From positions 1-64,000 of the forward strand of contig NZ_VOOS01000006.1 in assembly GCF_007993035.1 (NCBI RefSeq): a stretch of DNA of 64,000 bases, given 5' to 3'. The notes under the pieces are model-generated. The model did no database searches. It was not told where the DNA came from and saw only the letters and a program-made list of their open reading frames with translations. The DNA comes from Vicingus serpentipes (lineage in GTDB: Bacteria > Bacteroidota > Bacteroidia > Flavobacteriales_E > Vicingaceae). Position numbers and translations under genes: made by a program. Within the stretch, counting starts at the first letter, position 1. Each line of letters begins with the position of its first letter. Shown in pieces: positions 8,867 through 63,874 of the stretch.

Positions 8867-9856
8867 ATGGCAAATATTAGAGAAATATTAAAAGAAAGAA
8901 TTTTGGTGTTGGATGGTGCTATGGGAACAATGATTCAAAGGCATCAACTAACTGAAGAAGATTTTCGTGGTGAAAGATTTAAAGATCATTCTTGTTCTTT
9001 AAAAGGAAATAATGATTTACTTTCTATTACTAGACCAGATATAATTAAAAGTATCCATGCCGAATATTATGCAGCTGGTGCTGATATAGCTGAAACGAAT
9101 TCTTTTGGAGCGACATGGGTTGCTCAAGATGATTACGAATTAGCTTCAGCGGTTTACGATATTAATTATCAATCAGCTAAGCTAGCAAAAGAAGTAGCAA
9201 ACGAGTTTACAGCAAAAGAGCCTAATAAACCTCGATTTGTTGCAGGTTCAATGGGACCTACTACTAAGCTTGCATCTATGTCTCCAGATGTAAATGACCC
9301 AGGATTTAGAAACATTAGTTTTGATGAGTTGGTGGATGCTTTTAAAGAACAGGCAAGTGGATTAATTGATGGTGGCGCAGATTTATTATTGGTAGAAACT
9401 ATTACTGATACCTTAAACGCAAAAGCAGCGTTGTTTGCAATTAATGAAATTCAAGAAGAAAAAGGAACTGATTTACCAATAATGATATCAGGAACAATTA
9501 CTGATGCTAGTGGTCGAACCCTTTCAGGTCAAAATACAGAAGCTTTTGTTATATCTGTAGAACATGCTAAACCAATGACTATTGGTTTAAATTGTGCTTT
9601 AGGTGCAGAAGCATTAAGACCATATTTAAAAACTATTAGAGAAAAATCTGATAGTTTAGTTAGTGCTCATCCAAATGCAGGCTTACCAAATGAAATGGGA
9701 GCTTATGATGAATCACCAGAATTTATGGCAAAACAAATTAAAGTCTTTTTAGATGAAGGGTTGGTTAATATAGTTGGTGGTTGCTGCGGAACAACACCTG
9801 CACACATTAAAGCAATTGCCGATTTAGCTTCAACTTATTCTCCAAAAAATAATTAA
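8867..9856 (+). CDS. metH: Methionine synthase, homocysteine-binding (N-terminal) subunit of a split MetH
   Basis: Carries the homocysteine S-methyltransferase domain that binds and activates homocysteine with zinc. The 329 residues correspond to the first domain of one-piece MetH. The start [20 protein letters not shown] is typical. Zinc ligands are Cys243 in GLNCALG and Cys306/Cys307 in [11 protein letters not shown]. The protein ends shortly after this domain, and the next gene starts 2 bp after the stop with the remaining MetH domains, so the two must act as one enzyme. The SAM-I riboswitch and terminator directly upstream control both genes. The ATG comes 5 bp after the terminator T-run, so the hairpin may also hide the translation start. 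Confidence 0.93.
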
Positions 9857-9858
9857 GC

Positions 9859-12567
9859 ATGAGTTTACATCCAGACTACAAAGGAGATTACAAATACAAA
9901 TGGACAAACTTACCTTACCTAAAACTAAGCGGTTTAGAACCATTAATTGTTACTCCAGAAGTTAATTTTATCAATATTGGTGAGCGTACAAATGTTGCCG
10001 GGTCAAAGAAGTTTTTAAGATTAATTAACGAGAAGCAATTTGAAGAAGCATTAAGTATCGCTCGTCAACAAGTAGAGGGTGGGGCTCAAATCATCGATAT
10101 TAATATGGACGATGGTTTGATAGATGGAAAAGAAGCGATGGTTAACTTTTTAAAGTTAGTAGCTGCCGAACCTGATATTTGTCGAGTACCAATTATGATT
10201 GATTCCAGTAAATGGGAAATTATTGAAGCTGGGTTAAAAAATGCACAAGGAAAATGTGTAGTAAATTCAATTAGCTTAAAAGAAGGAGAAACACAATTTA
10301 TTGAGCAAGCAAAAACTATTTTAAGATATGGTGCTGCTGTTATTGTAATGGCTTTTGATGAGCAAGGACAAGCAGATAGTTATGAAAGAAGGATAGAAAT
10401 TTGTGAAAAATCATATCGAATTTTAGTGGATAAAGTAGACTTCCCTCCTCAAGATATCATATTTGATCCTAATATTTTTCCAGTAGCAACAGGAATGGAA
10501 GAACACCGAAGAAATGCATTAGATTTCTTTTTGGCTACTCGTTGGATTAGAGAAAATTTACCTGGAGCTCACGTTAGTGGAGGTGTAAGTAATGCTTCTT
10601 TTTCATTCAGAGGGAATAACACCGTTCGTGAAGCAATGCATTCTGCATTTTTGTATCATGCTATAAAGGAAGGAATGGATATGGGGATAGTAAATCCAGA
10701 AATGTTAGAGGTTTACAGTGATATTCCGAAAGAGTTATTAGACAAAGTAGAAGATGTATTATTGGATAGAACTGATGATGCAACCGAACGTTTGTTGGAT
10801 TATGCCGATAATGTAAAAGGAACAGTTAAAGAACAAAAGTTAGATTTAGAATGGCGTGAAGGTTCTTTACAAGAAAGAATTACACATGGGTTGGTAAAAG
10901 GAAATGCTGATTTTATTGAAGAAGATGCTGAAGAAGCTCGTTTGATTGTTGATAGACCGTTGCAAGTTATTGAAGAATACTTGATGAATGGAATGGGAGT
11001 GGTTGGAGATTTGTTTGGTTCAGGAAAAATGTTTTTACCACAAGTTGTAAAGTCTGCTAGAGTAATGAAAAAAGCCGTTGCTCATCTACTCCCATACATA
11101 GAAGCTTCTAAAGAAGAAGGTTCTAATGCTGGTAAAGTTTTGTTAGCAACAGTAAAAGGCGATGTTCATGATATTGGTAAAAACATTGTTGGAGTAGTTT
11201 TAGGCTGCAATAATTATGAGGTAATAGATTTGGGTGTAATGGTTCCTTGCGAGAAAATTTTACAAGTAGCTAAAGAACAAAATGTTGATTTAATTGGACT
11301 TTCTGGTTTAATTACGCCTTCGTTAGATGAAATGGTTAATGTAGCCAAAGAAATGGAGCGAGAAGGATTTACAATCCCATTATTAATTGGAGGAGCAACT
11401 ACTTCTAAAGTGCATACTGCTGTAAAAATTGAAGAGCATTATACAAAAGGACAAGCAGTTTATGTATTGGATGCTTCTCGTTCTGTAACTGTAGCAGATA
11501 GTTTGTTAAGCGACAAAAAAACTGAATATGTTAAAGCGATTAAAGCTGAATACGAAACCGTAAGAACACATTATAATAATAAACAGGTTAGGAAAGAAAT
11601 GCTTTCGTTAGTTGAAGCAAGAGCTAACAAATATAAAATTGATTGGAATACAAGTAAAATTGTTAAGCCACAACTATTAGGAACAAAACAGTTTGAGAAT
11701 TATAGTTTAGAAGAAATTTCTGAATACATCGATTGGACTCCTTTCTTTAGAACATGGGAATTAGCAGGAAAATACCCAAACATTTTAACTGATGAAGTAG
11801 TAGGTGTTGAAGCAACAAAAGTATTTAACGATGCGCAAAAAATGCTGAAACAAATAATCGACGAAAATTGGCTAACTGCTAAAGCAGTAATCGGAATTTG
11901 GGAAGCAAATACAATTAACGACGATACCATTGAAGTGTATGAAAATGGAAATAAAATAACTCAACTACATCAATTAAGACAGCAAGGCAAAAAAGCTAAA
12001 GAGGCTGTAAATATTAGCCTAGCTGATTTTATTGCACCAAAAGAAACTGGAAAAATCGATTATATTGGTGGTTTTGTAGTTACAACCGGACATGGAATTG
12101 AAGAGCACATTGCACGTTTTGAAGCTGACCACGATGATTATAATTCGATAATGATAAAAGCTTTGGCTGATAGATTAGCAGAAGCTTTTGCAGAGTTGAT
12201 GCACCAAAAAGTGCGTAAAGAATATTGGGGGTATGCAAATAATGAAAACCTTAGTAACGAAGATTTAATAAATGAAAGTTATAAAGGAATACGACCAGCG
12301 CCAGGTTATCCGGCTTGCCCAAATCATACATTGAAAACGGAGTTGTTTAAAATTTTAAATGCAGAAGAATTAACGGGTGTAACGTTAACAGAAAGTTTGG
12401 CAATGTACCCAACTGCTGCAGTAAGCGGAATGTATTTTGGTAACGAAGAAGCTAAATATTTTGGAGTTGGTAAGATAGAAAAAGACCAAGTACAAGCTTA
12501 TGCTAATGCTAGCGATTTTTCTTTTGAAGAAGCTGAAAAATGGGTTAGTGCTAGTTTGAATTATTGA
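9859..12567 (+). CDS. metH: Methionine synthase, folate/cobalamin/reactivation subunit of a split MetH
   Basis: Transfers the methyl group from 5-methyltetrahydrofolate via cobalamin to homocysteine bound by the upstream subunit. In order: pterin-binding domain (residues about 30-290, starting [17 protein letters not shown]), cobalamin cap (about 335-420), B12-binding Rossmann domain with DVHDIGKN (Asp435, His437 the lower axial ligand, Gly440), and the C-terminal AdoMet-binding activation domain with the RxxxGY motif at Arg812-Tyr817 ([10 protein letters not shown]). At 902 residues it equals MetH minus its first domain. Both halves keep their catalytic residues, so this is a functional split and not a pseudogene. 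Spacing of 2 bp implies coupled translation. Confidence 0.94.
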
Positions 12568-56846: not shown

Positions 56847-59321
56847 ATGGCAAAGAATCTTGTAATTGTTGAGTCACCCGCAAAGGCAAAAACTATTGAA
56901 AAGTTTTTAGGAAAAGATTTTACTGTGATGTCCAGTTTTGGTCATATTCGCGATTTGCCAGGTAAAAATATTTCAATAGATATTGAAAATGGATTTGAAC
57001 CTCAATACGAAATACCAACAGACAAGAAAAAACTTGTATCTGAATTAAAGAAATTAGCTAAAGCTGCTGATATGGTATGGCTAGCATCCGATGAGGATCG
57101 TGAGGGGGAAGCAATTTCATGGCATTTATTAGAAGCTTTAGGATTAAAAGAAGATAAAACAAAAAGGATAGTTTTTCATGAGATAACAAAATCTGCTATT
57201 ACTAAGGCGGTAGAGAATCCTCGAAAAATAAATAAAGATTTAGTTGATGCTCAGCAGGCTAGACGAATTCTAGATAGATTGGTAGGCTATGAACTTTCTC
57301 CAGTTTTATGGAAAAAAGTAAAACCATCATTATCTGCTGGTAGAGTTCAGTCTGTTTCTGTTCGATTAATCGTAGAAAGAGAAAGAGAGATTCAAAATTT
57401 TAACTACGAATCATCTTTTAGAGTTGTTGCTAATTTTATATTAGAAAATAAAGTTGTATTAAAAGCTGAACTTCCAAAACGATTTAAAACAAAAAAAGAA
57501 GCAGAAACATTTTTAGAAAAATGTAAGTCGGCAAATTTTAGTGTTGAAAGTTTAGAAACAAAACCTTCTAAAAAATCACCTGCAGCTCCTTTTACAACAT
57601 CTACTTTACAACAAGAAGCAAGTAGAAAATTAGGGTTTTCAGTTTCTCAAACAATGTCAGTTGCTCAGCGTTTGTATGAATCTGGGAAGATAACATATAT
57701 GAGAACAGATTCTGTTAATCTTTCTAATGAAGCAATAGGGGCAGCTAAAGCTGAAATTACTAAAGCTTACGGAAGTGAATTTTCTCAGGTGAGAAAATAT
57801 GCTACAAAATCAAAAGGAGCACAAGAAGCACACGAAGCAATTCGACCAACTTATTTTAATGCAAGTTCCATTTCAGGAGAATCTCAACAAGTTAAATTGT
57901 ATGATTTAATTTGGAAAAGAGCAATTGCATCTCAAATGAGTGATGCACAACTTGAAAAAACAACTGTAAATATAGCTATTTCTTCAGCAGATGAAAAATT
58001 TGTTGCAAGAGGAGAGGTTTTATTGTTTGAAGGGTTTTTAAAAGTTTATTTAGAATCTACAGATGATGAAAATGTGGATGAGGATAGCGGAATGTTACCT
58101 CCGTTAAAAGAAGGAGAAAATTTATTGTTAGATGAAATTGTTGCTTCTGAGCGATATACACATCACCCAGCAAGATATACTGAAGCAAGCTTAGTTCGTA
58201 AATTGGAAGAGTTAGGAATAGGAAGACCATCTACTTATGCGCCAACAATTTCAACAATTCAAAAAAGAGGATATATTGTAAAGGAGAATAGAGATGGGGA
58301 AAAAAGAAATTATACAGTTCTTACCCTTAAAAACAGCAATATTTCTGATGAAGTTAAGTCTGAAATATTTGGTGCTGAGAAAAAGAAAATGTTTCCATCT
58401 GATATTGGAACAATAGTTACAGACTTTTTAGTTGAGAATTTTAATAAAGTATTGGACTATGGATTTACAGCTAGGGTAGAAGAACAATTTGATGAAATAG
58501 CTATTGGTCAAAAAAAATGGAACAAAATGATTGAGGAGTTTTATACTCCTTTCCATAAAAATATAGAATATACACTAGAACATGCTGATAGAGCTTCAGG
58601 TGAAAGAGCTTTAGGGATAGATCCAGAATCTGGAAAGGAAGTTATTGCAAGAATTGGAAAGTTTGGAGCAATGATTCAAATAGGAAAAACAGAAGATGAG
58701 GAAAAGCCAAAGTTTGCAAGCTTACAAGGAACCCAAACAATAGAAACTATTACGCTTGAAGAAGCTCTTGAGCTATTTAAGTTTCCAAAAGCCTTAGGAA
58801 ATTTTGAAGGAGAAGAGATTGTTGTTTCTCAGGGAAGATTTGGACCTTATGTAAAATTTGCTGATAGTTTTGTTTCAATTCCCAAGGATGAAGACTTGTC
58901 ATCGGTTAATTTACAAAGAGCAATTGAATTGATAGAAGAAAAACGTAAAGCAGAAGCTCCAATTGCTAGCTATGAAAATATGCCTGTTCAAAAAGGAGTA
59001 GGAAGGTTTGGTCCTTTTATTAAATGGAACGGAATGTTTATTAACGTTAATAAGAAGTATGACTTTGATAATTTATCAAATCAAGATATTGCTCAATTGA
59101 TTGAAGATAAAAAACAAAAAGAAATAGAAAAGTACATACACAATTGGGAAGAAGAGGGGATTTCACTTCAAAAAGCAAGATGGGGAAGATTTAATCTCGT
59201 TAAAGGTAAAATTAAGGTAGAACTAGGAAAAGATACAGATGTTGAAAATTTTACTTTAGAGCAAGCTAAAAAATTAATAGAAGAAAAAACACCCAAGAAA
59301 AAGAAAGCAAAAAAGAAGTAA
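56847..59321 (+). CDS. topA: DNA topoisomerase I
   Basis: Relaxes negative supercoils through a 5'-phosphotyrosine link. The 824-residue type IA enzyme has the Toprim domain (LVIVESPAKAKTIEKFLG, ASDEDREGEAISWH), the catalytic tyrosine in KITYMRTDSVNLS, and SAGRVQSVSVRLI. The C terminus (about 590-824) has repeated KFGAM/RFGPYVKFA/RFGPFIKWN zinc-less repeats and a lysine tail (KKKKAKKK), as usual for Bacteroidota TopA. The next gene is 30 bp downstream. Confidence 0.96.
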   Translation: MAKNLVIVESPAKAKTIEKFLGKDFTVMSSFGHIRDLPGKNISIDIENGFEPQYEIPTDKKKLVSELKKLAKAADMVWLASDEDREGEAISWHLLEALGLKEDKTKRIVFHEITKSAITKAVENPRKINKDLVDAQQARRILDRLVGYELSPVLWKKVKPSLSAGRVQSVSVRLIVEREREIQNFNYESSFRVVANFILENKVVLKAELPKRFKTKKEAETFLEKCKSANFSVESLETKPSKKSPAAPFTTSTLQQEASRKLGFSVSQTMSVAQRLYESGKITYMRTDSVNLSNEAIGAAKAEITKAYGSEFSQVRKYATKSKGAQEAHEAIRPTYFNASSISGESQQVKLYDLIWKRAIASQMSDAQLEKTTVNIAISSADEKFVARGEVLLFEGFLKVYLESTDDENVDEDSGMLPPLKEGENLLLDEIVASERYTHHPARYTEASLVRKLEELGIGRPSTYAPTISTIQKRGYIVKENRDGEKRNYTVLTLKNSNISDEVKSEIFGAEKKKMFPSDIGTIVTDFLVENFNKVLDYGFTARVEEQFDEIAIGQKKWNKMIEEFYTPFHKNIEYTLEHADRASGERALGIDPESGKEVIARIGKFGAMIQIGKTEDEEKPKFASLQGTQTIETITLEEALELFKFPKALGNFEGEEIVVSQGRFGPYVKFADSFVSIPKDEDLSSVNLQRAIELIEEKRKAEAPIASYENMPVQKGVGRFGPFIKWNGMFINVNKKYDFDNLSNQDIAQLIEDKKQKEIEKYIHNWEEEGISLQKARWGRFNLVKGKIKVELGKDTDVENFTLEQAKKLIEEKTPKKKKAKKK

Positions 59322-59351
59322 TTTAATTACCGTTTATTAATAAATTCTCAG

Positions 59352-60515
59352 ATGAATTTTTCGGAATACTTAGAGCCAGTTAGTCTTGCACAAGGCGATT
59401 TAAAGTTTAATTATACTGATAATTGCTTCTTAAATTCAATTTCAACTGAAACTGATCCGGATTTAAGTCAATATAAAATTGCAATTATTGGAGTTGATGA
59501 TGATAGGGCTTCAGATAATAATAAAGGGTGTGGGTTGGCAGCAAATGAAATCCGTAAATATTTATATCGGTTAGTTCGTGTTTCTAATGACTTAAAGATA
59601 GTTGATTTAGGTAATCTAAAAAGTGGAGCTACTCTAAATGATACTTATTTTGCATTAAGTTCAATTTTAGAAGAATTGATAAAAAATAATGTTATCCCAA
59701 TCACTATAGGTGGAGGGCAGGATTTAACCTATGCTAATTTTTTGGCATACAAAAATTTAGAACAAACTGTTAATCTAGTTTCTGTAGATTCTAAATTAAA
59801 TTTAGGGGAACCTGATGAAGAAATAAATTCTAACAACTTTTTAACAAAAATCATTCTTCATCAACCAAACTTTTTATTTAATTATAGCAATATTGGTTAT
59901 CAGAGTTATTTTGTAGATAAATCTGAAATTGATTTAATGAATAAGCTATACTTCGATGTTTATAGATTGGGCCAAGTTCAGAGTAGTATTGAAGAAGTAG
60001 AGCCTATTGTAAGAAATGCAGATATGCTTAGCTTTGATGTCTCATCTATTCGTCAGTCCGAAGCCCCAGGGAATAATAATGCATCTCCAAATGGATTCTA
60101 TGGAGAGCAGGCTTGTCAAATTGCAAGATATGCAGGACTTAGTGATAAGTTAACCTCTATTGGATTTCATGAAGTAAATTCAGAGATGGATGTAAATGGC
60201 CAAACTTCACATTTGGTGGCTCAGATGATTTGGTATGTGGTAGATGGTGTAGTAAATAGAAAAAAAGATTTTCCTATTGGTTCAAGAAAAACATATACCA
60301 AATATATAGTCAATATTCAGGAAGGAGAAAATGAATTGGTTTTCTATAAGAGTGATAAAAGTGAGCGCTGGTGGATGGACGTGCCTTATCCTGCTCACCA
60401 AAAAATAAAATACGAACGACATCTTTTAGTTCCATGCTCTTATAAAGATTATCAAACAGCTTGCAATAATGAAATGCCAGATAGATGGTGGCAAACTTTT
60501 CAAAAATTACTTTAA
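59352..60515 (+). CDS. Arginase/formimidoylglutamase-fold protein with degenerate metal site
   Basis: A 387-residue protein with the arginase/agmatinase/HutG fold, but the Mn-binding residues are changed. The usual GGGHD/GGDHS is GGGQD (Gln123), the usual DAHxD is DSKLN (146-150; His and second Asp lost), and the usual FDVD is FDVS (Asp229, Ser231). PGNNNASPNGFYGEQ keeps the family's loop framework. At most two of the roughly six ligands remain, so hydrolysis of arginine or formiminoglutamate is doubtful. The C-terminal 75 residues extend beyond the fold (RWWMDVPYPAHQKIKYERH). It sits between topA and the T9SS genes; a structural role near T9SS is inferred from place only. Confidence 0.82.
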   Translation: MNFSEYLEPVSLAQGDLKFNYTDNCFLNSISTETDPDLSQYKIAIIGVDDDRASDNNKGCGLAANEIRKYLYRLVRVSNDLKIVDLGNLKSGATLNDTYFALSSILEELIKNNVIPITIGGGQDLTYANFLAYKNLEQTVNLVSVDSKLNLGEPDEEINSNNFLTKIILHQPNFLFNYSNIGYQSYFVDKSEIDLMNKLYFDVYRLGQVQSSIEEVEPIVRNADMLSFDVSSIRQSEAPGNNNASPNGFYGEQACQIARYAGLSDKLTSIGFHEVNSEMDVNGQTSHLVAQMIWYVVDGVVNRKKDFPIGSRKTYTKYIVNIQEGENELVFYKSDKSERWWMDVPYPAHQKIKYERHLLVPCSYKDYQTACNNEMPDRWWQTFQKLL

Positions 60516-60561
60516 AATCAACTTATTAACATGTAATTAACAATTAAAAGTTGAAAAAGTT

Positions 60562-60603
60562 TTTGGTAAAAATATTTTTTTATTTATCTTAGCCGACTAA
60601 GAT
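60562..60603 (+). promoter_or_regulatory. Likely promoter and start-site hairpin of the T9SS cluster
   Basis: TTTG (60562-60565), 19-bp spacer, TATCTTAG (60585-60592, one mismatch to TAnnTTTG). A 7-bp perfect hairpin ATCTTAG-CCGA-CTAAGAT (60586-60603) overlaps the -7 box. It lies about 45 bp before the porP-like ATG. Confidence 0.5.
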
Positions 60604-60646
60604 GTGTTATAACTATTATTAATTAACTAGAAAACTAGTCACAATT

Positions 60647-61603
60647 ATGAAGAAATATATTGTTTCTGCTGCTTTATTCTTTACAGGAATGGTTGCTTTT
60701 GCTCAGCAAGATGCTCAGTTCACTCAGAATATGTTTAATAAATTGAGTGTAAATCCTGGTTATGCTGGTGCTAACGGAGGTATTTGTGGAACTTTTTTAA
60801 GTAGAACACAATGGACAGGGTTTGATGGCCATCCATCAACAAATTTGTTCAGTGTTGATGCTCTATTATTTAGTAAGCATGGTGTTGGGTTGACTGTTTT
60901 TCAAGATAAGCTAGGTATTGAGACTTCTTTAGTCGCTAAACTAGCATATTCTTATCATTTAACTTTAGGGCCAGGATCTTTAGGGATTGGTGTTGAAGGT
61001 GGATATTTAAGTAAGTCTTTTGGTTCTGACTTTATAGCTGTTGATGATCCAAACTTTGATCCATCAATTCCAAATGGAGGGACTTCAGCTGGAACATTTG
61101 ATTTAGGAATGGGATTGTATTATAACATACCTAATAAAATGTATGTTGGTATTTCAACGTTGCACTTAACTGCATCTGAATTGCAAGATGTTGCTGATGG
61201 TGGCACAGGTACAGGTGCATTAAACTTTGCTCAATCTAGACATTATTATATTATGGCAGGTTATGATTGGGATATGTCAGGAGGAGCTCAAAAGTGGGTT
61301 TTAAAACCATCTATATTAGCAAAAACTGATGCAGCTTCAACTCAATTAGATATAAATGCACTTGTGATGTACAATAAATTAGTTTGGGGAGGCGTTTCTT
61401 ATAGAATCGAAGATGCAATAGCAGTGCTTGCAGGTGTAAATATTCCACAGTTACCTGGGCTTAAAATTGGAGCGTCTTATGATATTACAATGTCTAGTTT
61501 AGGTGATCATAGTAGCGGAAGTTTAGAATTTATGGTTAAATATTGTACTAATATATCTAAGCCAGCTAAAAGAGAGGTTTATCATTCAGTAAGATTTTTA
61601 TAA
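60647..61603 (+). CDS. PorP/SprF-family type IX secretion membrane protein
   Basis: A 318-residue outer-membrane protein with signal peptide MKKYIVSAALFFTGMVAFAQ. The mature N terminus QDAQFTQNMFNKLSVNPGYAGANGG is the PorP/SprF signature (Q-D-x-Q-F-x-Q-x-x-x-N-x-x-x-x-N-P-x-Y-A-G). The rest is an alternating barrel with GVGLTVFQDKLG and GVSYRIEDAIAVLAGVNI. PorP/SprF proteins work with GldK-N and type B cargo. Directly upstream of gldK, as in other Bacteroidota. Confidence 0.92.
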   Translation: MKKYIVSAALFFTGMVAFAQQDAQFTQNMFNKLSVNPGYAGANGGICGTFLSRTQWTGFDGHPSTNLFSVDALLFSKHGVGLTVFQDKLGIETSLVAKLAYSYHLTLGPGSLGIGVEGGYLSKSFGSDFIAVDDPNFDPSIPNGGTSAGTFDLGMGLYYNIPNKMYVGISTLHLTASELQDVADGGTGTGALNFAQSRHYYIMAGYDWDMSGGAQKWVLKPSILAKTDAASTQLDINALVMYNKLVWGGVSYRIEDAIAVLAGVNIPQLPGLKIGASYDITMSSLGDHSSGSLEFMVKYCTNISKPAKREVYHSVRFL

Positions 61604-61708: not shown

Positions 61709-63010
61709 ATGAAACGAATATTAATATTATTAGCAGTAGTTGTTCTTTATGCTTGTAGCAAAGGGAATGGAGAGTTGATTGGTGTGCAAGGAAGAGAGGA
61801 GTGGTATCAACCAGATCCATTTGGGATGTTATTCATACCAATGGGTAGTTATAATATGGGTCCATCAGATCAAGATGTACCATATTCTTTAACAGCACAA
61901 ACAAGAACTGTATCGGTTCAAGCATTTTATATGGATCAGACAGAAATTTCTAATAACGAATATAGACAGTTTGTTTATTGGGTAAGAGATTCTATGGCTA
62001 GAAGAATTATGGCTGAAGAAGTTGATGAAGAAGCATTTTCTATAGCAGAAAATGATTATGGAGAAGAAATTGATCCCCCATTATTAGATTGGTATACTAA
62101 ACTAAAATGGGATGAACCTGAAGCAAGAGAAGCTTTAGAACCTATGTTTTATTCTCCTGCTGAAAGATTTTATAGAAGAAGAGAGTTAGATGCTCGTAAA
62201 CTAAACTACGAGTACTATTGGATAGATTATAGAAGAGCTGCTAAAAGAGAAAGCCGTGATTCAGAAGATCATGCGTTTAGTATGGATAGATCTAAGTTTA
62301 TTATGAGAGATGTTATAAATGTTTACCCTGACACACTTGCTTGGATACATGATTTAACATACTCATTTAACGAGCCAATGACTAAAAATTATTTTTGGCA
62401 CCCGGCATATGATGATTATCCTGTTGTAGGTGTTTCATGGAAACAGGCTACTGCGTTTTGTATCTGGAGAACTCAATTATTAGAAAGTTTTTTAATTGGT
62501 AATGGCTCAGCCATAGTTAATGACTTTAGACTACCTACTGAATCGGAGTGGGAATGGGCTGCAAGAGGTGGCTTAGACTTAAGTCCTTACCCTTGGGGTG
62601 GGCCTTATATTAGAAATAGTAGAGGTTGTTTCTTAGGTAACTTCAAGCCTATGAGAGGGAACTACATAGATGATGGTGGATTCCATACTGTAAAAATTAA
62701 TTCTTACAATCCCAATGATTTTGGATTATATTGTATGGCTGGAAATGTTGCAGAGTGGACAAGTAACGCATTTGATGAGTCTGCATATAATTTTGCACAT
62801 GATTTAAATCCAGATTACATGTATGACGCTAAAGAAAATGATCCTCCTTCATTAAAAAGAAAAGTAATTAGAGGAGGTTCATGGAAAGATGTTGGGTATT
62901 ATTTACAAACATCAACAAGAACTTACGAGTATCAAGATACTGCTAAGTGTTATATTGGATTTAGATGCGTGATGACGTATTTAGGAAGAGCCAAAGACGA
63001 CAATTTATAA
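61709..63010 (+). CDS. gldK: T9SS outer-membrane lipoprotein GldK
   Basis: The T9SS ring lipoprotein (PorK). 433 residues: lipobox YAC (Cys16), then a formylglycine-generating-enzyme-like (sulfatase-modifying) domain, residues 40-425. Visible FGE features: MLFIPMGSYNMGPSD, QAFYMDQTEISNNEYRQF, YPVVGVSWKQATAFCIWR, DFRLPTESEWEWAARGG, GNVAEWTSNAFD, KVIRGGSWKD, YIGFRC. Catalytic cysteines of true FGE are not needed for its structural role. Ordered with gldL and gldM downstream, as in the gldKLMN operon. A strong Shine-Dalgarno fixes the start. Confidence 0.96.
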   Translation: MKRILILLAVVVLYACSKGNGELIGVQGREEWYQPDPFGMLFIPMGSYNMGPSDQDVPYSLTAQTRTVSVQAFYMDQTEISNNEYRQFVYWVRDSMARRIMAEEVDEEAFSIAENDYGEEIDPPLLDWYTKLKWDEPEAREALEPMFYSPAERFYRRRELDARKLNYEYYWIDYRRAAKRESRDSEDHAFSMDRSKFIMRDVINVYPDTLAWIHDLTYSFNEPMTKNYFWHPAYDDYPVVGVSWKQATAFCIWRTQLLESFLIGNGSAIVNDFRLPTESEWEWAARGGLDLSPYPWGGPYIRNSRGCFLGNFKPMRGNYIDDGGFHTVKINSYNPNDFGLYCMAGNVAEWTSNAFDESAYNFAHDLNPDYMYDAKENDPPSLKRKVIRGGSWKDVGYYLQTSTRTYEYQDTAKCYIGFRCVMTYLGRAKDDNL

Positions 63011-63061: not shown

Positions 63062-63874
63062 ATGGGATTTGTAGAATTTTTATTTGAAACAAAAAAAGGT
63101 AAAACCGTAATGGGTATTATTTACGGTTGGGGAGGCGCAATTGTAATTATTGGTGCACTTTTTAAGATTATGCACTGGCCTGGATCTTCTTTTTTCTTAA
63201 TTGCAGGATTAGGAATTGAGGCTGCAATTTTCGCTATTTCAGCATTTGAGCCACCTCATATGGATTTGGATTGGACATTAGTATATCCTGAATTAGCTGG
63301 GATGGATGAAGGACATGGTCATGGAGGTCATTCAATCTCTAATAAACCTGTAACTGAACAATTAGATGATATGTTATCAGAAGCAAAAATTGGTCCTGAA
63401 TTAATTGAAAGTTTAGGTCAAGGATTAAGAAGTTTAAGTGATAATGCAAATAAATTATCTCAAATTTCTGACGCATCTGTTGCAACTAATGATTATACAG
63501 ATAGTTTGAAAAATGCATCAACAAAAGTTTCTGACTTAGCTGATACTTATGCTCAAGCTTCACAAGCTTTAACAGGTTTATCTGATGCAGCTCAATCTGG
63601 TTCATCTACTGGAGAAGAATTACAAAAAATGGCATCTACTTTAGAAGCTTTAAATAAATCATATGAAGTTCAACTGACAGGCTCTCAACAACAAGCTGAG
63701 ACAATGACAGCAATGTATGAAGGTATCAATACATTAATGACTAATTTATCTGATTCAGTTGAAGATACTAAGCGTTATAAAGAAAATATTTCTGAATTAT
63801 CGGTTAACTTATCTAAATTGAATACTGTTTATGGTAATATGTTAACTGCAATGAGTGTTCCAGCTGGAGCATAA
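63062..63874 (+). CDS. gldL: T9SS inner-membrane motor protein GldL
   Basis: Forms with GldM the proton-driven motor of T9SS and gliding. 270 residues: two transmembrane helices (about 17-37 and 43-63), then a long cytosolic helical part with Ala/Ser/Gln-rich coiled coil (75-265). Charged residues in the helices are retained: Lys35, His38, Glu53, Glu63, the last two spaced ten apart as in known GldL proteins. The His-rich GHGHGGHS linker (about 95-102) follows the second helix. Starts 51 bp after gldK. Confidence 0.95.
   Translation: MGFVEFLFETKKGKTVMGIIYGWGGAIVIIGALFKIMHWPGSSFFLIAGLGIEAAIFAISAFEPPHMDLDWTLVYPELAGMDEGHGHGGHSISNKPVTEQLDDMLSEAKIGPELIESLGQGLRSLSDNANKLSQISDASVATNDYTDSLKNASTKVSDLADTYAQASQALTGLSDAAQSGSSTGEELQKMASTLEALNKSYEVQLTGSQQQAETMTAMYEGINTLMTNLSDSVEDTKRYKENISELSVNLSKLNTVYGNMLTAMSVPAGA

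Follow-up and report, generated by a model that had tools for sequence, protein, structure and literature searches.

The window, the whole stretch of 64,000 nucleotides analysed here from Vicingus serpentipes, carries towards its end an uninterrupted open reading frame on the forward strand (59352-60515, stop codon counted in). It starts with ATG and encodes a protein of 387 residues with an arginase/formimidoylglutamase fold, which we call the pseudo-ureohydrolase. Upstream, on the same strand, lies its probable operon partner topA, the gene for DNA topoisomerase I (56847-59321); the 30 nt between the two (59322-59351) hold no promoter-like or terminator-like match. Downstream, beyond a gap of 131 nt (60516-60646), the forward strand continues with a gene of the porP/sprF family (60647-61603), gldK (porK; 61709-63010; TIGR03525, 594 bits) and gldL (porL; 63062-63874; TIGR03513, 238 bits), each of which we treat as a neighbour only. 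Scans with promoter and terminator consensus sequences around topA, the pseudo-ureohydrolase gene and porP gave no clear excess over shuffles. Elsewhere in the window, methionine synthase seems to be divided between two neighbouring genes (8867-9853 and 9859-12564, forward strand); judged by their N-termini, these are the homocysteine-methyltransferase part and the rest.

What kind of protein does the reading frame encode? Over residues 42-296 the product matches the Pfam Arginase model PF00491 at E 6.5e-24, scoring 85 bits where the cut-off is 22. Among NCBIfam models hutG (TIGR01227, formimidoylglutamase) scores highest, but its 83.1 bits fall far short of the equivalog cut-off of 229.15. 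An AlphaFold2 model built from 36 aligned relatives reached a pLDDT of 91.4 and a pTM of 0.92. The solved structures closest to it are the Trypanosoma cruzi formiminoglutamases 4MYN and 4MXR (VIA-align Z 37.8, 1.9 Å, 277-278 residues), followed by the Bacillus subtilis structure 3M1R (Z 35.6). The arginase-fold core was set at residues 41-305 (59472-60266); the structural alignment spans residues 21-304. Membership of the arginase/ureohydrolase superfamily, which the preliminary description had read from the letters alone, is thus borne out; the modelled fold is secure, with formimidoylglutamase as its nearest enzyme.

Can such a protein still hold a binuclear manganese cluster? In arginase, the ligands of MnA are the His of the GGxH motif, the two Asp of DxHxD and the leading Asp of DxD; those of MnB are the leading Asp of DxHxD, the His of that motif and the two Asp of DxD. 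To locate these six positions we used an alignment of 118 family members and 20 homologous ureohydrolases of the same phylum. The window protein has Gln123 (codon 59718-59720) in place of the GGxH His, on the MnA side; Asp146 (59787-59789), a bridging ligand; Lys148 (59793-59795) at the MnB His position; Asn150 (59799-59801) at the second Asp of DxHxD; Asp229 (60036-60038), the other bridging ligand; and Ser231 (60042-60044) at the MnB Asp position. The substitutions listed in the preliminary description (Gln123, the motif DSKLN at 146-150, and Ser231 after Asp229) are all present in the translation and in the alignment, and Asp146 and Asp229 are indeed the only two of six ligands left intact.

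The loss is not peculiar to this genome. A catalytic member of the arginase family has six ligands and a binuclear site, and all 20 homologous ureohydrolases retain five or six of the ligands; the family members mostly retain three and never more than four, so that all 118 are affected. Asp146 is retained in 106 of the 118 and Asp229 in 110. Position 123 is Gln in 89, His in 18 and Asn in 6. At position 148, which varies greatly, 60 members have Lys or Arg and 7 have His. At position 231 most members have Ser, Gly, Asn or Thr; Asp occurs in only six, five from family f4 and one from f6, where the stretches have diverged and the alignment is unsure. The pair specific to MnB, His148 and Asp231, is never intact as a pair (0/118), and the losses at these two positions are the decisive ones. 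By itself, Gln123 is weak evidence for loss of the metal site, because Asn is the natural residue at this position in a T. cruzi formiminoglutamase whose structure was solved with Mn2 (the title of 4MYN reads 'N114H variant'); two of the aligned homologues have Asn at position 123 as well. Few relatives have the Asn of position 150, where Asp is found in 101 of the 118.

The three carboxylates of MnA (Asp146, Asp150 and Asp229) are all retained in 97 of the 118 members, and in those 97 residue 123 is always a possible ligand, mostly Gln. The phrase 'destroyed metal site', used in the preliminary description, therefore holds for binuclear catalysis but not for the family at large, which 'half-site' would describe better. 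In principle, a half-site could support other chemistry. At the other extreme, the members in f4 have almost no ligands left.

Beyond the core, residues 306-387 (60267-60512) form an additional module of 82 residues, for which prediction in isolation gave four strands and two helices at a pLDDT of 83. Its motif, FxKS..RWW..PC..DY..A..P.RW, is common to most clades and largely lost in f4. Among 36 diverse members the invariant residues of the module are F331, W340, W341, C362, Y367, A370 and P376. A search of 37 genomes located the module in 27 of them, always as one copy and always within the pseudo-ureohydrolase gene; no stand-alone or shared copy turned up in the 37. The C-terminal extension with Trp and Tyr residues, noted in the preliminary description, is thus real. 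Does it correspond to a known domain? In Pfam the window protein has no C-terminal match at E up to 10, and its relatives have matches below cut-off only. A profile search of the PDB gave matches at E 0.08 or worse, among them a non-significant one to spectrin SH3 (E 0.08-0.19), and a Foldseek search reached E 3 and Z 3.5 at best, the non-significant fold matches to the WGR (PARP2) and WRKY DNA-binding domains lying at E 3 or worse. None of these searches, by domain, profile or fold, returned a significant match. The pI is 4.6 for the core and 7.9 for the module.

How widespread is the family, and is it maintained? At a match of E 1e-25 or better, 321 of the 346 genomes sampled from the class Bacteroidia have a member, as a rule just one; four of the 25 negative genomes have weak or fragmentary matches. 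(Genome families are labelled f1-f114 in this sample; the tree links a single one of them, f2, to a named group, Sphingobacteriaceae.) In a maximum-likelihood tree of 33 members and 18 enzymes, family and enzymes separate with 100/100 support along a branch of 1.43 changes per column, and the family is monophyletic on these sequences. There are 28 invariant columns in 36 diverse members, and the invariant core residues include R68, D85, G120, D146 and D229. Within one genus dN/dS is 0.03-0.05, and for two pairs of genomes that lack SprA it is 0.027 and 0.030, by a simple Nei-Gojobori count on few pairs. Chance loss of ligands and decay to a pseudogene are ruled out by the ligand tallies, the invariant columns and dN/dS. 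Constraint is not uniform, since f4 largely loses the C-terminal motif and the arginase core is strongly diverged in f6, where RWW is kept in most members. The suggestion that a disabled metallohydrolase has been kept for a non-enzymatic role is supported by all of this: ligand loss in every member, a fully supported split from the enzymes, purifying selection and a module of its own.

If the gene is not kept for catalysis, do its neighbours reveal what it is kept for? The order topA, pseudo-ureohydrolase, porP, gldK, gldL was found at 14 of the loci, and most of f5 has topA, pseudo-ureohydrolase and gldK. In f4 (two loci) topA is directly upstream and gldK elsewhere; f7 has the link to porP and gldK without topA; Sphingobacteriaceae (f2), f3, f9 and f10 have neither the topA nor the gldK link. 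The f6 genes face a convergent murF, a name based on its N-terminal sequence alone, with gldJ beyond it; porP is also nearby at two f6 loci. The order that the preliminary description had noted is therefore kept in several families, but in only part of the class. Between topA and the pseudo-ureohydrolase gene the median gap at 47 loci is 9 nt, and often it is 0-9 nt or an overlap; this median is a lower bound because starts were taken as the most upstream codons, although the N-termini align well. On the other side, the median distance to porP or gldK, taken at 45 loci, is 159 nt. Such spacing suggests that the pseudo-ureohydrolase is probably co-expressed with topA in an operon, and its position beside type IX secretion genes looks like an inherited gene order, not a shared job. 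At three f6 loci the diverged members adjoin the murF-like gene and gldJ and have a long gene on their other side; at one of these (L091) the long gene has an OmpA domain and weak matches to PorE and PorG.

The neighbourhood nevertheless suggested in the preliminary description a role in the assembly or regulation of type IX secretion, that is, a secretion or gliding factor aiding the assembly, stability or regulation of the GldK-GldL-GldM complex encoded downstream. The conserved order just described and the f6 loci beside gldJ speak for it, as does the distribution across the class: SprA and the family are both present in 317 genomes, SprA alone in 20, the family alone in 4 and neither in 5 (Fisher p 1e-4, uncorrected for phylogeny). 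These points are not independent, because the cell with neither is made up of three genomes from a single family plus two that are very small. Within clades the association fails, by a test with SprA and GldM profiles that a very diverged SprA could escape. All 31 genomes of genus g2, which belongs to f2 and groups with Pedobacter in the tree, have the family, whereas SprA was found in 9 and GldM over cut-off in 27; two of them, G487 and G604, both 99% complete, retain the family without SprA or GldM. The reverse also occurs: SprA is present without the family in f11, f96 and several f12 genomes, and the one genome tested in each of these three had GldM. Thus the presence of the family does not follow SprA and GldM in g2 or f12. 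The family does occur where type IX secretion is missing, yet in those genomes the gene lies elsewhere than between topA and porP-gldK. About 18 of the 22 g2 genomes without a SprA match have GldM over cut-off (for example genome G002, C1:3473543-3475060); apparently these have a GldM-containing motor without the SprA translocon. With gaps that tie the gene to topA rather than gldK, clades in which gldK is far away and a dN/dS near 0.03 in the SprA-less pairs, a role specific to type IX secretion is unsupported and we consider it unlikely. There may still be a weak connection, given the class-level association with SprA and the proximity to gldJ in f6. Gene order also suggests that the protein might assist topoisomerase I, as its partner in DNA topology or in the workings of the nucleoid; this strikes us as distinctly unlikely. 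The short or overlapping gap at most of the 47 loci would fit it, and in f4 the link to topA has outlasted that to gldK; against it, pI values of 4.6 and 7.9 do not suggest DNA binding, the matches to WGR and WRKY folds are all at E 3 or worse, and TopA need not be functionally connected at all, because the link is missing in Sphingobacteriaceae, f3, f9 and f10.

Two further explanations start from the fold instead of the neighbours. Could the protein still be a hydrolase, with one metal in the MnA half-site (Gln or His123, Asp146, Asp150, Asp229), Lys or Arg148 standing in for MnB, and altered chemistry? The 97 members with three carboxylates and a possible fourth ligand, and the 60 with Lys or Arg at 148, are what would be expected of it. 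Yet the window protein itself has Asn150, f4 is almost free of ligands, position 148 varies greatly, and Glu274, present in 20 of 20 enzymes, is found in just 70 of the 118 family members; we regard an active mononuclear enzyme as very unlikely. The last explanation has a precedent within the superfamily. MetCb is an inactive subunit of metformin hydrolase in which five of six ligands are mutated; it caps and stabilises its neighbour MetCa, with an extended C-terminal loop at the interface (PMC11271267). Might the pseudo-ureohydrolase likewise stabilise or cap an active arginase-family partner? The genome of V. serpentipes has two other arginase-family genes, but there is no adjacent active paralogue of the metCa kind: no ureohydrolase turned up directly beside the gene in the window, nor among recurrent annotated neighbours elsewhere. 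Counts of PF00491 genes per genome argue further against the model. Three genomes (G099, G021 and G333) have one PF00491 match each at E 1e-10, with a score typical of the pseudo-ureohydrolase family, and G099 has a single match also with the window protein as query. An obligate active partner of the same fold is therefore unlikely, because these genomes keep the family and have no other arginase-fold gene, and a MetCb-like role seems to us highly improbable. Two genomes of f12, G230 and G238, have no arginase-fold gene of any kind at E 1e-10; other genomes of f12 have SprA.

We conclude, with a probability of roughly 0.6, that the protein is a class-wide housekeeping pseudoenzyme, a non-catalytic binding protein that is probably co-expressed with TopA and is not specific to type IX secretion. 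It would descend from a formimidoylglutamase-like enzyme that lost the ligands specific to MnB while keeping its scaffold and, in most members, the MnA half-site, and that gained a private C-terminal module. Since the MnB-specific ligands are gone, no assembly of the water-activating binuclear cluster is expected, and the missing ligands argue strongly that the protein is non-hydrolytic. More tentatively, it may bind a cation or small ligand as well as a protein partner: the old active-site cleft, with Asp146 and Asp229 and often Lys or Arg148 at the MnB spot, would hold a single cation or small ligand, while functional contact with the partner would fall to the conserved C-terminal module. 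The three genomes with one PF00491 match each suggest that no active arginase-fold partner is needed. Enzymatic roles appear to be filled elsewhere in the genome of V. serpentipes, where a separate arginase-family protein has its GDH, DAHAD and DVD motifs intact. The pseudo-ureohydrolase is probably cytosolic; here its gene would be the second cistron of a topA operon, and its role a general cellular one in the class. One could go further and make the cleft of this near-universal Bacteroidia pseudoenzyme a sensor or single-cation site, coupled through the C-terminal module to some housekeeping process that is expressed together with topoisomerase I; DNA supercoiling and nutrient-to-growth signalling would be examples. 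That extension is speculative, and we hold it as a doubtful possibility.

In the papers searched we found no description of a class-wide pseudo-ureohydrolase family and none that joined such a protein with type IX secretion or topA. The kind is already known, because pseudoenzymes of the superfamily have been cited from eukaryotes and fusobacteria, besides MetCb (PMC11271267). What would recognition of the family change? The models that fit its genes best are those of formimidoylglutamase, and the genes might be taken to encode metabolic enzymes, in which case erroneous histidine or arginine metabolism could be attributed to members throughout the class. The family also provides a broad natural record of a binuclear site of which one half was lost and the other kept, and may carry out a core function of Bacteroidia that has yet to be characterised. 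Finally, if adjacency to gldK is mostly inherited order, effort can be spared on a type IX secretion story.

How does the protein compare with known systems? The porP, gldK and gldL genes are its immediate downstream neighbours here and in part of the class; they have no sequence relation to it, and lie beyond the 131-nt gap, and within g2 or f12 the presence of the family does not follow that of SprA. HutG (TIGR01227; T. cruzi 4MXR, B. subtilis 3M1R) is both its best sequence family and its closest solved fold, with Z 37.8 over 278 residues; compared with HutG, the pseudo-ureohydrolase scores 83 against a cut-off of 229, has lost the MnB ligands and has an extra C-terminal module. Trypanosoma brucei is reported to have an arginase-like protein without the binuclear manganese cluster (Hai et al. 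2015, as cited in PMC11271267), the function of which PMC11271267 calls elusive; by that account it too has an arginase fold without a metal cluster, but it comes from a protist. Unlike MetCb, which is encoded beside the active MetCa, the pseudo-ureohydrolase has no such neighbour, and some genomes have no possible arginase-fold partner for it. Like MetCb, it is an arginase-fold pseudoenzyme that has lost most of its ligands and has an extended C-terminus.
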